A stretch of DNA of 64,000 nucleotides from Candidatus Zixiibacteriota bacterium (GTDB taxonomy: Bacteria > Zixibacteria > MSB-5A5 > DSPP01): positions 1 through 64,000 of the forward strand of contig JAKEHY010000017.1 of NCBI GenBank assembly GCA_022614805.1, read 5' to 3'. Position numbers and translations under genes: made by a program. Below are positions 30,672 to 38,020 of the stretch, piece after piece. The notes beneath the pieces are model-generated. The model saw only the letters and a list, made by a program, of their open reading frames with translations. It did no database searches and had not been told where the DNA came from. The first letter of the stretch is position 1, and the number at the start of each line of letters is the position of its first letter.

Positions 30672-31184
30672 TTAAAAGAACCAGTTGGCATCCGGTTCGT
30701 CGGCGGAGGGGCCGTAGATGGCGGGGACTTTGCCGCCCGCCATTCGCAGATAGACGGCGAACTGCCCGCGGTGGTGCACGCCGTGCATAACGGCGAACCA
30801 GAGCAAATCGCCGGCGCGAACCTTGTCTCCCTTTCCCGGCTGCATTTCATACGGAATCGGCTTTTGCAAATCCGCTTCCGAAAGGTTTTTCAGTTTGCCG
30901 GCCAGCTCCCGGTGCTCTTTTTCATAGGCCGCCAATATTTCCGCCAGCGTGGCCGGGGGCTTGGGGTAATTTTCCTCCTCCATCTCCATATCTATCCGGC
31001 CATTGACCGCTCCCTGAATGGCCATCCGGTCCTCCATCGGGAAACACCAGGCCAAATTCCGGGCGGTCATTGCGCGTTCGTGGGGCTTGAATTCCAACTT
31101 GTCGGCGGGGAAGGCCCTTAACACTTTGAGCGTGGTTTGAAACTCCCGCTCCCAGGTTTTCAGGAACATATCCTTCTCGTTCAT
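30672..31184 (-). CDS. DinB-family protein
   Basis: The 170-residue four-helix protein begins MNEKDMFLKTWEREFQTTLK and has the conserved metal-ligand histidines in KPHERAMTARNLAWCF and in FAVMHGVHHRGQFAVYLR. DinB/YfiT proteins are often thiol-dependent (bacillithiol or mycothiol) transferases; this one has all three usual histidines. I start at 31184 because AAGGAG lies 6 bases upstream; a longer frame from 31229 has no such support. Its leader is duplicated upstream of the RibD-like gene at 31939. Confidence 0.9.
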   Translation of the reverse strand: MNEKDMFLKTWEREFQTTLKVLRAFPADKLEFKPHERAMTARNLAWCFPMEDRMAIQGAVNGRIDMEMEEENYPKPPATLAEILAAYEKEHRELAGKLKNLSEADLQKPIPYEMQPGKGDKVRAGDLLWFAVMHGVHHRGQFAVYLRMAGGKVPAIYGPSADEPDANWFF

Positions 31185-31212
31185 AACGAACTCCTTTCCG
31201 TTTTCGCTCCGG

Positions 31213-31280
31213 TTATTTTTCTTCCGCAACTCCCAAGTCGCTAAAGCGCTCGATCTGCTCGTGGGGAACGCTCCACTCGT
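31213..31280 (-). pseudogene. C-terminal fragment of a DGPF protein
   Basis: This frame ends SVPHEQIERFSDLGVAEEK and a TAA stop. The end of the intact long-type DGPF protein at 32420 is SEQIERFRELGVGEEK, so this is the tail of a sister gene whose body is gone. It sits directly after the stop codon of the RibD-like gene and directly before the DinB leader. The RibD-like gene therefore appears to have replaced or interrupted the DGPF gene. Confidence 0.8.
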
Positions 31281-31288
31281 TCGCTACG

Positions 31289-31939
31289 TCAAGCGCGGTT
31301 GCGGGGTGGTCGCGGAAGGGGCACCGCGCTCGCTCCGACTTGCGCTTCGGCACTGGCTCTGGCGTACGTCGCCAAGATCGCGCCGGTCGTGATCGTCTCG
31401 CTCGTCACGAGCGTGAATCGCCGACGGACTCCATCGTCGCGGAAGAAGCGTTTGCCGCCGCCGAGGATGACGGGATCGATCATAAGACGGAGCTCGTCGA
31501 CCAGATCGTGCGCGAGGAGCGCCGCCGCGAGCTCGGTGCTGCCTATCAGGAGCAGGTCCTTGCCGTCCTGGCGTCTTAGCTTCGCCACGGACTCGGCGAT
31601 GTCGTCGCCGAGCAGCATCGAGTTCTGCCAGCCGAGTGGCTCCTTCAGCGTTCTCGAGGCGACATACTTCGGGAGCGTGTTCAATGGCTGGGCAAAGGCC
31701 TGCTCCTCCTGGGGCGCCTCGGGCCAGTGCTCCGCGAATACGTCGTACGTGCGGCGCCCGAGCAGGAATCCCCCCGCTCCACTCACACCCTCGATGAGCC
31801 ACTTCATCGAACGTTCCTCAAAGTACCGCAGATGCCACCCGCCGTACTTGAACCCACCGCTGGGGTCCTCGTCCGTGTACGCTGGCGCTTGCACGACGCC
31901 GTCGAGGCTCATCCACTCGGACGCGATTACCTTGCGCAT
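31289..31939 (-). CDS. RibD C-terminal domain (dihydrofolate reductase-like) protein, probably transferred
   Basis: The 216-residue protein has MRKVIASEWMSLDGVVQAP, GFLLGRRTYDVFAEHWPE, LLLIGSTELAAALLAHDLVD and MIDPVILGGGKRFFRDDG, the RibD_C pattern. Base composition is visibly more GC-rich than the neighbours, with many CG dinucleotides, which suggests origin in a high-GC genome. The gene lies between two copies of a leader/tail segment (DGPF tail plus DinB start). The translation signal is AAGGAGG, formed inside the duplicated DinB leader. Its last residues run through the junction and may not be original. Confidence 0.88.
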   Translation of the reverse strand: MRKVIASEWMSLDGVVQAPAYTDEDPSGGFKYGGWHLRYFEERSMKWLIEGVSGAGGFLLGRRTYDVFAEHWPEAPQEEQAFAQPLNTLPKYVASRTLKEPLGWQNSMLLGDDIAESVAKLRRQDGKDLLLIGSTELAAALLAHDLVDELRLMIDPVILGGGKRFFRDDGVRRRFTLVTSETITTGAILATYARASAEAQVGASAVPLPRPPRNRA

Positions 31940-31991
31940 TGATAGGCCTCCTTCTCATTCATAACGAACTCCTTTCAATTTTGAGTTTCGA

Positions 31992-32391
31992 TTACTTCTC
32001 TTCTCCGACTCCCATTTCGCGGAAGCGTTCGGGGAAAGACGCCAACAATGTTTCACCTTCATTCCTCCGGCCAAAAAGGGCGGATTTCGATTTTGCCAAA
32101 GCGGGCCATGGGATGTTTTGAGGCGATCTCAACGGCCGTATCGAGATCCGCACACTCCAGTAAATCGAAGCCGGCTATCCATTCCTTGGTCTCGGCAAAC
32201 GGGCCATCCGTGACCAGAAGTTTGCCGTTCCGCCGGCGAACGGTGGTGGCCTCTTCCACTCCTTTCAGGCGATTGCCGAGAACGCGCACTTTCCGCCGGT
32301 CCATCTCGGCGCACCAATCCTCTATGTTGTCCTCTTCGGGCACGTACTTCTCGGCTGCGGGGTCGACGCAAACGAACATTATGTAACGCAT
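31992..32391 (-). pseudogene. DGPF (YCII-related) gene, long type, with a C-terminal frameshift
   Basis: The main frame starts at an ATG at 32391 behind AAGGAG (MRYIMFVCVDPAAEKY) and contains [20 protein letters not shown]. It stops at a TGA at 32061-32059. Skipping one base at about 32061 restores a frame that reads EGETLLASFPERFREMGVGE and ends in EK and a TAA at 31994-31992. That tail is the same as in the intact DGPF protein downstream at 32420. The gene is therefore frameshifted by one base near its end, or the assembly carries an extra base here. The truncated product keeps the whole DGPF domain. Confidence 0.85.
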
Positions 32392-32419: not shown

Positions 32420-32845
32420 TTACTTTTCTTCTCCAACTCCCAGCTCGCGAAAGCGTTCTATCTGTTCGCTGGGGGCGAAGTCCTCCAGTTCGTACAACTG
32501 GCGCACCTCGATTTCGCAGTCCGTGAAATGGGGTTTGGGATAGCGTTTGCTCCATTCCAACGCTTCTTCCCTCGATTTCACTTTGATGAGCGTGTAGCCG
32601 GCGATGAGTTCCTTCGTTTCTGCGAAAGGCCCGTCGATTACGGTGCGTTTTCCGCTGGAGTACTGGATGCGCCAGCCCTTGGAGCTCGGCTGCAACCCGG
32701 AGGCGTCGAGGAGCATCCCGGCTTTTGCCAGTTCCTCGTGGTAGGTGGCCATTGCGGCAAAGAGCTTCTCATTCTCCTCCCCCTCATTGGGCGCGGTCTC
32801 TTTTTCCGAGTCCTTGGTGGCCTTGACGATAATCATAAACCGCAT
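32420..32845 (-). CDS. DGPF (YCII-related) protein, long type
   Basis: The 141-residue protein starts MRFMIIVKATKDSEKE, has a [20 protein letters not shown] core and ends with the acidic tail SEQIERFRELGVGEEK that is typical of the longer type. AAGGAG precedes the ATG. It is 35 bases from the DGPF gene at 32881 and 28 bases before the frameshifted one, so a tandem array is transcribed together from the ECF42-type promoter at 33.8 kb. Confidence 0.93.
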   Translation of the reverse strand: MRFMIIVKATKDSEKETAPNEGEENEKLFAAMATYHEELAKAGMLLDASGLQPSSKGWRIQYSSGKRTVIDGPFAETKELIAGYTLIKVKSREEALEWSKRYPKPHFTDCEIEVRQLYELEDFAPSEQIERFRELGVGEEK

Positions 32846-33337: not shown

Positions 33338-33736
33338 TTATTTTTCTTTTGTCGTTGAACGGCGCCGTTCGCTTTCCCGAATCATTCCGGTCAAGTCCTC
33401 GGCCGGGCGAATCTCGAAGGGGCCAATCTTGACGCCGGGATGCTTCGACATCAACTGGATGGCGTGGTTCAGGTCGTTGGCTTCGAGTATCAAAATTCCC
33501 CCTAATTGCTCTTTGGTCTCGGCAAAGGGGCCGTCGGTGACGACCACTTTTCCCTTTTGATATCGCAGGGTGGTAGCGTTGCGGGCGGTTTGCAGCGCTT
33601 CCCCGCCGGCAAAGTGGCCGCCTTCTCTAAGCACGTCGTCGTAAGCGAAGCAGGCGTCCATCAACGCGCTTTGCTCGCTTTCCGACAGCGTTTCCCACTT
33701 CTTCTCGTCAAAGTATCCCAGGCAAATGTATTTCAT
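33338..33736 (-). CDS. DGPF (YCII-related) protein, first gene behind ECF42-type promoter
   Basis: The 132-residue protein begins [19 protein letters not shown] and has [20 protein letters not shown], then [24 protein letters not shown] precedes the ATG. A TGTCGA-17-CGACT site lies 50-75 bases upstream, making this the first gene of an ECF42-driven transcript that continues through the DGPF genes at 32881, 32420 and 31992. Confidence 0.93.
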
Positions 33737-33784: not shown

Positions 33785-33812
33785 AGTCGTTTGAGGAAAC
33801 CCAAAATCGACA
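33785..33812 (-). promoter_or_regulatory. ECF42-type promoter upstream of the DGPF array
   Basis: On the minus strand TGTCGA (33812-33807), a 17-base spacer and CGACT (33789-33785) followed by ATA. This agrees with the promoter known for ECF42 sigma factors (TGTCGA at -35 and CGA(A/T)C or a similar CGA-containing -10). The same motif with the same spacing recurs at 36.2 kb. The base run TCAAACGACTAT/CCAAACGACTAT is also shared. Confidence 0.8.
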
Positions 33813-34985: not shown

Positions 34986-35597
34986 TCAGCCGTTCGCGTC
35001 GGCGAAAGATTCGGTTCGCAGCGATCCAACGTATCGGTACAAGTTTATGAGCACGCCCGTGGACGAGGCCTTCGTGCTGACAAGAGCGAGTTCCCGCGGG
35101 TCGGCACTCTCCGCAAAGAAGCGCTTGCCCCGGCCCAGCAAGACCGGGTAGACGAGCAGCAGAACCTCGTCGGTCAGTCCCCGCTCGAGCAGCACGGGCG
35201 TCAGAGTCGAACTTCCCCAGACGATCAGGCCAGGGCCGTCCTTGGCCTTGACGGCGCGAACACCCTCAATGATGTCCGCGCCCAGGTCCTTGGCCGGACC
35301 CCATTTGAGGCTGTCCGGCCTGTGGGTCGCGACGTATTTCGTCGCGGCGTTCAGACCATCCGCCAAGGGACTGCTCTCTGCCTTCGGCCAGTAGCCGGCC
35401 CAGATATCGTAGGTGCGGCGGCCAAGCAGCAGATCGAAGCTCTTGCCCTGCGCCGCGATGATGACCTCTCCGCTCGCCGCATCCATATACCGCATCGCCC
35501 ATCCACCATGGGCGTAGTCGCCGTCTTCGTACCGCCCGCCGGGCGCTTGGATCACGCCGTCCAGCGAGATGTGTTCGATGATCCTTATCTTTCTCAT
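34986..35597 (-). CDS. RibD C-terminal domain (dihydrofolate reductase-like) protein, probably transferred
   Basis: The 203-residue protein has RIIEHISLDGVIQAPGGRYE, DLLLGRRTYDIWAGYWPKAE, IVWGSSTLTPVLLERGLTDE and LVYPVLLGRGKRFFAE, the RibD_C pattern. It is GC-rich and sits just before an MFS remnant, so a horizontally acquired segment is likely. Its ATG overlaps the TGA of a 35-codon frame upstream (ATGA), which brings a good AGGAGG site. The last residues (FADANG) may have been added at the junction. Confidence 0.88.
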   Translation of the reverse strand: MRKIRIIEHISLDGVIQAPGGRYEDGDYAHGGWAMRYMDAASGEVIIAAQGKSFDLLLGRRTYDIWAGYWPKAESSPLADGLNAATKYVATHRPDSLKWGPAKDLGADIIEGVRAVKAKDGPGLIVWGSSTLTPVLLERGLTDEVLLLVYPVLLGRGKRFFAESADPRELALVSTKASSTGVLINLYRYVGSLRTESFADANG

Positions 35598-35739: not shown

Positions 35740-36090
35740 TCAGCTCAACTCCATCGTCGGCCGCACTTCGATGCATCCCAAGCGCGCACCGGACAACCGG
35801 GAAGCCACCTGAATCGCCTCGTTTAAGTCCCGCGCCTCTATCAAGAAGAATCCCCCCAACTGCTCCTTGGTCTCGGCAAAGGGGCCATCCGTCGTGGAGA
35901 CTTTGCCGTTTCGAACTCTCACCGTCGTGGCGTTTTCCGTAGGCTGAAGGGCCTGCGAGGTAATCAAGCGGCCGTTTTTGTGGAGTTCCTCGTTGTAGGC
36001 ATAGGTCTCGCGCACGATATCGTCCCACTCGCTTTTGGGCATCGCCTTCAATTTTTTTTCTTCTTCATAACACAGACAAACGTATTTCAT
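35740..36090 (-). CDS. DGPF (YCII-related) protein, first gene behind second ECF42-type promoter
   Basis: The 116-residue protein starts MKYVCLCYEEEKKLKAMPKS and has [20 protein letters not shown]. It ends GARLGCIEVRPTMELS. TTAAGGAGGATTA precedes the ATG. The promoter TGTCGA-17-CGACT lies 75-100 bases upstream. Confidence 0.93.
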   Translation of the reverse strand: MKYVCLCYEEEKKLKAMPKSEWDDIVRETYAYNEELHKNGRLITSQALQPTENATTVRVRNGKVSTTDGPFAETKEQLGGFFLIEARDLNEAIQVASRLSGARLGCIEVRPTMELS

Positions 36091-36164: not shown

Positions 36165-36192
36165 AGTCGTTTGGGGAAGCGCGAAATCGACA
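36165..36192 (-). promoter_or_regulatory. ECF42-type promoter, second copy
   Basis: On the minus strand TGTCGA (36192-36187), a 17-base spacer and CGACT (36169-36165). It has the same spacing as the site at 33785-33812 and directs transcription to the DGPF gene at 36090. A third lone CGACTATA at about 36138-36131 lacks a -35. Confidence 0.8.
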
Positions 36193-36693: not shown

Positions 36694-37947
36694 TCAGTCC
36701 GGCAGTTCCGCGAGCCGCCGTTCCAGAAAGCGCCGCTCCGTTTCCTGCTGCGTGAGGTCCAAAGCGCGCTGGTAAGAGACCCGGGCCTCCACCGTTTTTC
36801 CCAGCCGCCGGCAGAGGTCCGCCCGAGCCGAGTGCGCCAGGTGGTAGGCGTCCAGGTCGCCGCGTGTCAGGATGGCGTCGATTAAGACCAAGCCTGCAGA
36901 AGGGCCGTCGCGCATCGCCACCGCCACGGCTCGGTTCAACTCGACTACGGGGGAGGGATTTGCCTGCACCAAAAGGTCATACAGCCCGACAATCCTGGCC
37001 CAGTCCGTGGCGGCGCCATTCTGTGCTTTGGCGTGCTCGGCAGCAATCGCCGCCTGAAGCGTGTACGGGCCAAAGCGGCGGGAGGAGAGAGCCCGTTCTA
37101 CCAGAGCCAGCCCCTCCTCAATCTGTCCCCGATTCCAAAGGGTGCGGTCCTGGTCGTCCAAAAGAATTAGTTCCCCAGACGGAGAGGTGCGCGCAACCCG
37201 GCGCGATTCGTGTAACAACATCAACGCCAAAAGCCCTGACACCTCTGGCTCCGGCAACAACTCGAGCAAGAGCCGCCCCAAGCGTATGGCTTCCCCCGAA
37301 AGGTCGGCCCGCGTAAGCGTTGCTCCCGACGAAGCGGAGTATCCTTCGTTAAACACCAAATAAACCACTTGGAGCACGGTTTCGAGCCGGTCGGGAAGGT
37401 CGGCACGCGACGGCACTTGATACGGAATGCGGGCTTCTTTGATTTTCGCTTTGGCCCGCACGATGCGTTGGGCCAGCGTGGGGGGGGCGGTGAGGAAGGC
37501 GCGCGCAATTTCCTCGGTCGTCAGGCCGCACACCTCCCGCAAGGTCAAGGCTACCCGGGCTTCCGGCGGCAGGGCCGGATGGCAGCAGGTGAAGATGAGC
37601 CGCAGCCGGTCGTCTTCGACCCCCTCGCTTTCCCGCGGTTCGACGTAACGACTGTCGGCCTCGAGTTGGAGGGCCAGAGTTTCAAGCGAGGCGTCATAGC
37701 GGGCGCGTCGGCGCAGGGTATCGATGGCCTTGAAACGGCCGGCCGAAACGAGCCAAGCCCGCGGCTTGACGGGGACGCCGTCTTTCGGCCACTTTTCGAG
37801 CGCCGCTGCAAAGGCATCGTGGAGGGCGTCCTCGGCCAAGTCGAAATCGCCGAGCAGGCGGATGAGAGTCGCCAAAACCCGGCGGGATTCGGAGCGGTAG
37901 GTCGCTTCCACCATTTCGCGTGCCCGTCCGGCGGCGTTTTCGGTCAT
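36694..37947 (-). CDS. ECF42-type sigma factor with C-terminal TPR-like extension (DUF6596)
   Basis: The 417-residue protein opens with a sigma-70 region 2 (EATYRSESRRVLATLIRLLG, LAEDALHDAFAAALEKWPKD, PRAWLVSAGRFKAIDTLRR) and region 4 (LPPEARVALTLREVCGLTTE, EIARAFLTAPPTLAQRIVRA). About 230 further residues follow with repeated helical pairs (TLQAAIAAEHAKAQ, RALDLTQQETERRFLERRL). That layout and the DGPF-rich context identify the ECF42 group, which is known to lack a classical anti-sigma factor; the C-terminal extension is needed for activity. I use the ATG at 37947, where GAGGA lies 10 bases upstream; a TTG at 37983 is the alternative. Its targets are probably the TGTCGA/CGACT sites at 33.8 and 36.2 kb. 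Confidence 0.93.
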   Translation of the reverse strand: MTENAAGRAREMVEATYRSESRRVLATLIRLLGDFDLAEDALHDAFAAALEKWPKDGVPVKPRAWLVSAGRFKAIDTLRRRARYDASLETLALQLEADSRYVEPRESEGVEDDRLRLIFTCCHPALPPEARVALTLREVCGLTTEEIARAFLTAPPTLAQRIVRAKAKIKEARIPYQVPSRADLPDRLETVLQVVYLVFNEGYSASSGATLTRADLSGEAIRLGRLLLELLPEPEVSGLLALMLLHESRRVARTSPSGELILLDDQDRTLWNRGQIEEGLALVERALSSRRFGPYTLQAAIAAEHAKAQNGAATDWARIVGLYDLLVQANPSPVVELNRAVAVAMRDGPSAGLVLIDAILTRGDLDAYHLAHSARADLCRRLGKTVEARVSYQRALDLTQQETERRFLERRLAELPD

Positions 37948-38020
37948 TGTGATGTGTCCTCGATAGATGCCGGTTGAACTCAATTTTTTGCGGGAGTAGT
38001 TAGGAAAAGCGGAGCTTATT

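Follow-up and report, generated by a model that had tools for sequence, protein, structure and literature searches.

Arrays of DGPF, RibD and DinB genes are common beside ECF42 sigma factors. ECF42 loci have been described as having a TPR extension on the sigma factor and a YCII neighbour (PMC8999054), and the mapped promoters of RpoE10, the ECF42 sigma factor of Sinorhizobium meliloti, read TGTCGG...CGTC (PMC6180224).

The window, the whole stretch of 64,000 nucleotides of Candidatus Zixiibacteriota DNA that we analysed, holds such an array, and within it a RibD-like gene that sits between two sets of gene remnants. We consider it probable that an old DGPF/DinB array took up an Actinomycetota/Chloroflexota-type RibD_C gene by microhomology joining and lost the gene bodies in between. 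The features on which this reading rests are as follows.

26.8-38.0 kb, minus strand: run of small genes sitting behind an ECF sigma factor
30672-31184, minus strand: intact DinB-family gene (PF05163, E 6e-19)
31171-31198, minus strand: leader copy A, preceding the intact DinB gene
31213-31266, minus strand: orphan DGPF tail A, PHEQIERFSDLGVAEEK and a stop (from tblastn, codon comparison and the fine GC profile)
31289-31939, minus strand: DHFR-like/RibD_C reductase-family gene of 216 codons (PF01872, E 3.2e-24)
31927-31962, minus strand: 11-codon minicistron MNEKEAYQCAR and a stop, read from the sequence and putatively translated
31948-31953, minus strand: predicted 5' junction AAGGA(G), common to the DinB codons and the RibD-like gene's own Shine-Dalgarno
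31949-31976, minus strand: leader copy B, with the Shine-Dalgarno, start codon and first codons of a putatively lost DinB gene
31992-32030, minus strand: orphan DGPF tail B, ERFREMGVGEEK and a stop, beyond the stop codon of DGPF 32059-32391 (from tblastn and codon comparison)
32059-32391, minus strand: short DGPF (YCII) gene (PF03795), ending just ahead of tail B
32420-32845, minus strand: intact DGPF (YCII) gene with tail copy C (PF03795 and tail comparison)
33786-33812, minus strand: ECF42-type promoter-like site TGTCGA-N17-CGAC, preceding DGPF 33338-33736
36166-36192, minus strand: second ECF42-type promoter-like site TGTCGA-N17-CGAC, preceding DGPF 35740-36090
36694-37983, minus strand: ECF42-like ECF sigma factor (Sigma70_r2, r4_2; DUF6596, PF20239, E 2e-37)

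The resemblance to described ECF42 loci lies in the sigma factor, its neighbours and the promoter-like sites. The sigma factor has a TPR-type C-terminal extension, in which the TPR matches are weak and below the cut-off, and YCII/DGPF genes lie nearby, as in PMC8999054. The motif TGTCGA-N17-CGAC occurs at two sites in the window against 0.4 expected, and these TGTCGR...CGWC promoter-like sites agree with the S. meliloti RpoE10 promoters (PMC6180224). The locus is thus an ECF42-type array, and the insert belongs to its second half. The site at 33786-33812 is likely to be the head of the transcript that contains the RibD-like insert. Both promoter-like sites sit within a 39-base repeat (D14) whose copies are 85% identical. 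Unlike the loci of PMC8999054 and PMC6180224, the array here is long, with at least seven intact DGPF/YCII genes (five recognised by PF03795 and two more by repeat and alignment), three RibD_C genes, one DinB gene and others, as well as gene remnants. From this family's neighbourhood, the RibD-like protein presumably has a stress- or detoxification-type role under the ECF42 sigma factor, as do other array genes.

The RibD-like protein matches PF01872 along its whole length (86.3 bits against a cut-off of 24.1, profile positions 1-196 of 197), and its match to PDB 8jsv, a 'dihydrofolate reductase family protein', has an E value of 7e-41. In this it is like the single-domain DHFR-family/RibD_C proteins such as 8jsv and 2gd9 (YyaP). 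Scores against the riboflavin reductase models fell short of the cut-offs (TIGR01508, 23.5 against 186.45 bits; TIGR00227, 19.4 against 150.15), so that by these curated values it is no riboflavin reductase; the matches to PF01872 and 8jsv mark it as a single-domain DHFR-like/RibD_C protein. Unlike the other single-domain proteins it has about 20 extra C-terminal residues: the family core ends near residue 193, and the last 20 or so go past the point where close relatives stop.

A preliminary description had placed a GC-rich RibD_C gene between the two sets of remnants and suggested that its GC and codon usage would set it apart from the genome. The position, family and GC content were borne out. 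Measured against the window together with 477 kb of sampled contigs, the gene has a GC content of 65.4%, compared with a host-gene mean of 55.9%, a value reached by 2 of 354 length-matched host chunks; its GC3 lies in the top 2.5%. The codon part of the suggestion held less well, as the overall codon likelihood falls at the 15th percentile, mildly unusual and within the normal range. The individual skews are towards GCG (16 of 24 alanines, 26% in host genes), CTC (13 of 25 leucines, 15% in the host) and ACG (9 of 11 threonines, 27% in the host). On a fine profile the high GC starts right after the 5' leader and stops near 31270. The composition argument is tempered by two other GC-rich genes in the same array, the sigma factor gene and a second RibD_C gene at 34986-35597 on the minus strand (63.4%). 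This second RibD_C gene has a very long branch, placed among Pseudomonadota sequences, and may be another acquisition.

Within the phylum, 133 genomes yielded homologues of the RibD-like protein with 43% identity at best. Full-length matches of 64%, 60% and 62% came from Actinomycetota and Chloroflexota, in searches round a Micromonospora genome and a Chloroflexota bin, the best identity being 64% in the first phylum and 62% in the second. Among named genomes, a scan found matches in Micromonospora, at 62% identity along 149 residues, and in a Methanoperedens bin, at 54%. A single-sequence scan of genome contigs with the inserted protein gave no close relatives, and an alignment-based scan found homologues. 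A maximum-likelihood tree built from 71 rows places the gene in a seven-row Actinomycetota/Chloroflexota-type clade with support of 100/100, and forcing it together with the phylum's own homologues was rejected (lnL difference 124); the genus-mate's own RibD copy branches in another part of the tree. Both signs of transfer, nearest relatives beyond the host phylum and a conflicting tree, are thus present. The composition, the lack of close homologues in the phylum, the closer homologues in Actinomycetota and Chloroflexota and the tree test all argue that the gene, as first proposed from its sequence, was acquired from outside the lineage, with a donor of either Actinomycetota or Chloroflexota type. 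The closest named homologue, in Micromonospora qiuiae (L065 4001-6083), has a DGPF gene and an ECF42-like sigma factor gene after it.

The remnants on either side of the gene come from the array itself. A pattern search of the whole window, allowing up to three mismatches, found the 28-base DinB leader GAAAGGAGTTCGTTATGAAYGAGAAGGA at two sites, 31171-31198 and 31949-31976, both on the minus strand, where 100 shuffles gave an expectation of 0. An orphan DGPF C-terminal tail stands ahead of each copy, and both tails match the C-terminus of the intact gene at 32420-32845. The two leader copies with their tails had been recognised at the outset; their extents needed correction. Tail A has its stop at 31213 and homology from about 31266, rather than 31280, and tail B has its stop at 31992 and clear homology from about 32030, rather than 32045. 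The DinB gene that follows leader A has a 53% identical homologue in one genome of the same order.

The two leaders are identical at 27 of 28 bases, and the order of tail, leader and DinB is the same in both copies. These are the observations that favour a recent tandem duplication of a single DGPF-DinB unit, its middle then replaced by foreign DNA and an AAGGAGG arising from the DinB codons, which is how the preliminary description explained the locus. The near-identity of the leaders is in part a matter of function, through the Shine-Dalgarno, the start codon and the conserved MNEK, and may in part reflect recombination inside the array. The tails tell against recency. Over the last 13 codons, a comparison that spans just 39 bases, tails A and B differ at 10 positions, A and C at 7 and B and C at 5, so that A and B, which a recent event would have left mutually closest, are each nearer to the third tail than to one another. 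Of the 10 variable columns, seven fall at third positions of codons (P about 0.02), and four of the five codons changed between B and C are synonymous. The bias and the counts suggest, at the modest strength that so short a comparison gives, that the tails diverged while still coding and that neither A nor B is the other's nearest copy. Both seem to be what is left of old paralogues within one DGPF family, from two older units. We therefore think a recent duplication improbable.

The reading frame of tail B is open back through the end of DGPF 32059-32391. As a frameshifted end of that gene, tail B would give lengths that do not fit an intact tail; this point marks a frameshift or, alternatively, the replacement of a second gene body.

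The same comparison bears on a single insertion that copied about 100 bases of its target as a target-site duplication, with no prior duplication of the unit. The direct repeats on both sides of the foreign gene are what such an event would leave, but it too predicts that A and B are mutually closest. Moreover, copy A starts midway through a DGPF gene and continues into an intact DinB gene, while copy B ends at DinB codon 5. The homology thus does not extend up to the insert on both sides as it would after duplication of a target, and we regard this explanation as very improbable.

We give no more credence to the arrival of the gene within a piece of another lineage's DGPF/RibD array, brought in by homologous recombination at conserved sequences, in which case one of the flanking remnants would be foreign. 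The neighbourhood of the close Micromonospora homologue, with its DGPF gene and ECF42-like sigma factor, is just what such a piece would look like. However, the flanking remnants are host-like in GC (0.40-0.53), tail B is nearest to the host's own gene, and the DNA upstream of the relative is unlike the leader. A chimeric contig, in this draft genome, is unlikely, and an integron cassette was rejected as no attC-like site (RYYYAAC ... GTTRRRY) was seen by eye at 31213-31330.

We looked for the array as it might have been before the insertion. No array without the insert was found among the genomes examined, and the single genus-mate has a rearranged one. Its order (G001) is RibD, DGPF 32881, two RibD and MATE, with no DinB close to that of the window and no DGPF 32420; given the different gene order and the absence of a close DinB, we rejected it as an 'empty site'. 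In the genus-mate (L042, G001:C71, 4008-7881) the counterparts of RibD 30079, DGPF 32881 and MATE are kept at 78-89% identity in a changed order. Judged by these gene orders, the array has been rebuilt quickly within one genus. Across the phylum, homologues of the DGPF genes at 32420 and 32059 were found only in the genus-mate and in one class relative, whose contig starts inside the array, and the DinB loci of order and class relatives have no DGPF gene ahead of DinB.

Uptake of the foreign gene by an old array, the reading that we prefer, fits with the junctions. The nearest full-length relative (L173) has AAGGAGGCC before its start codon, at the same place as the site in the window; its start region reads gactgcAAGGAGGCCgagATG, where the window reads ATGAATGAGAAGGAGGCCtatcaATG. 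Other relatives carry AAGGAGG, AAGGAG or AGGAGG at the same distance from the start. The ribosome site is thus kept in relatives of the inserted gene, and the AAGGAGG probably came in with the inserted gene rather than arising, as had been supposed, in the DinB start. DinB codons 4-5 (AAG GA) overlap the first bases of this Shine-Dalgarno, and the 5' junction probably lies within the resulting microhomology of 5-6 bases.

The 3' junction can be placed at about 31266-31280, not fixed to the base. Relatives stop soon after a TYA motif (TYAPAEA and a stop, or similar), whereas the frame of the RibD-like protein stays open in GC-rich sequence for about 20 residues more and reaches its stop at 31289, some 20 bases short of the DGPF tail. 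It is probable that the stop codon of the donor gene was lost or bypassed.

The sequence of events would then have been as follows. The ancestral locus would have been an array of paralogous DGPF and DinB genes under an ECF42-like sigma factor. A segment of about 0.68 kb, bringing its own Shine-Dalgarno, would have been fused at its 5' end to DinB codons 4-5 through the short microhomology. Its 3' end would have landed in the C-terminal portion of a second DGPF gene, with the loss of the intervening DinB and DGPF bodies. The remnants are most simply read as those of two DGPF-DinB units between which these two bodies were replaced. The short sequence shared at the 5' junction and the truncated genes at both ends are like those of microhomology-mediated illegitimate insertion; unlike in the usual insertion that leaves remnants, the flanks here are paralogous, so the remnants resemble a duplication. 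The new gene would now be read from the array's ECF42-type promoter.

The junction also left a short reading frame across the start of the new gene. The minicistron opens at the old DinB start (31962) and ends 13 bases inside the RibD-like gene (stop at 31927, gene start at 31939), and the gene's own Shine-Dalgarno sits within it. This arrangement may couple translation of the RibD-like gene to the minicistron, and so to a strong start site. Predicted RNA folding at the leader region is ordinary (z -0.15) and speaks neither for nor against coupling. In the bicistronic design (BCD) leaders of synthetic biology (PMC5995908) a short leader peptide likewise holds a second Shine-Dalgarno and the stop and start overlap; unlike those, the leader here comes from a gene junction and is putatively translated.

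The locus is a neat example of two known processes at work in a tandem array, horizontal transfer and illegitimate joining, and involves no new principle. Its attractive detail is what would be a natural two-cistron leader, made by the capture of a gene behind a well-translated start codon. It is conceivable, if rather unlikely, that such capture is a general route by which ECF42/DGPF arrays gain new genes that are expressed at once. The locus keeps both scars of one gene exchange and so shows how such arrays change their content: the flanks derive from old paralogues, and the newcomer is a foreign gene from the same functional set that brings its ribosome site with it.
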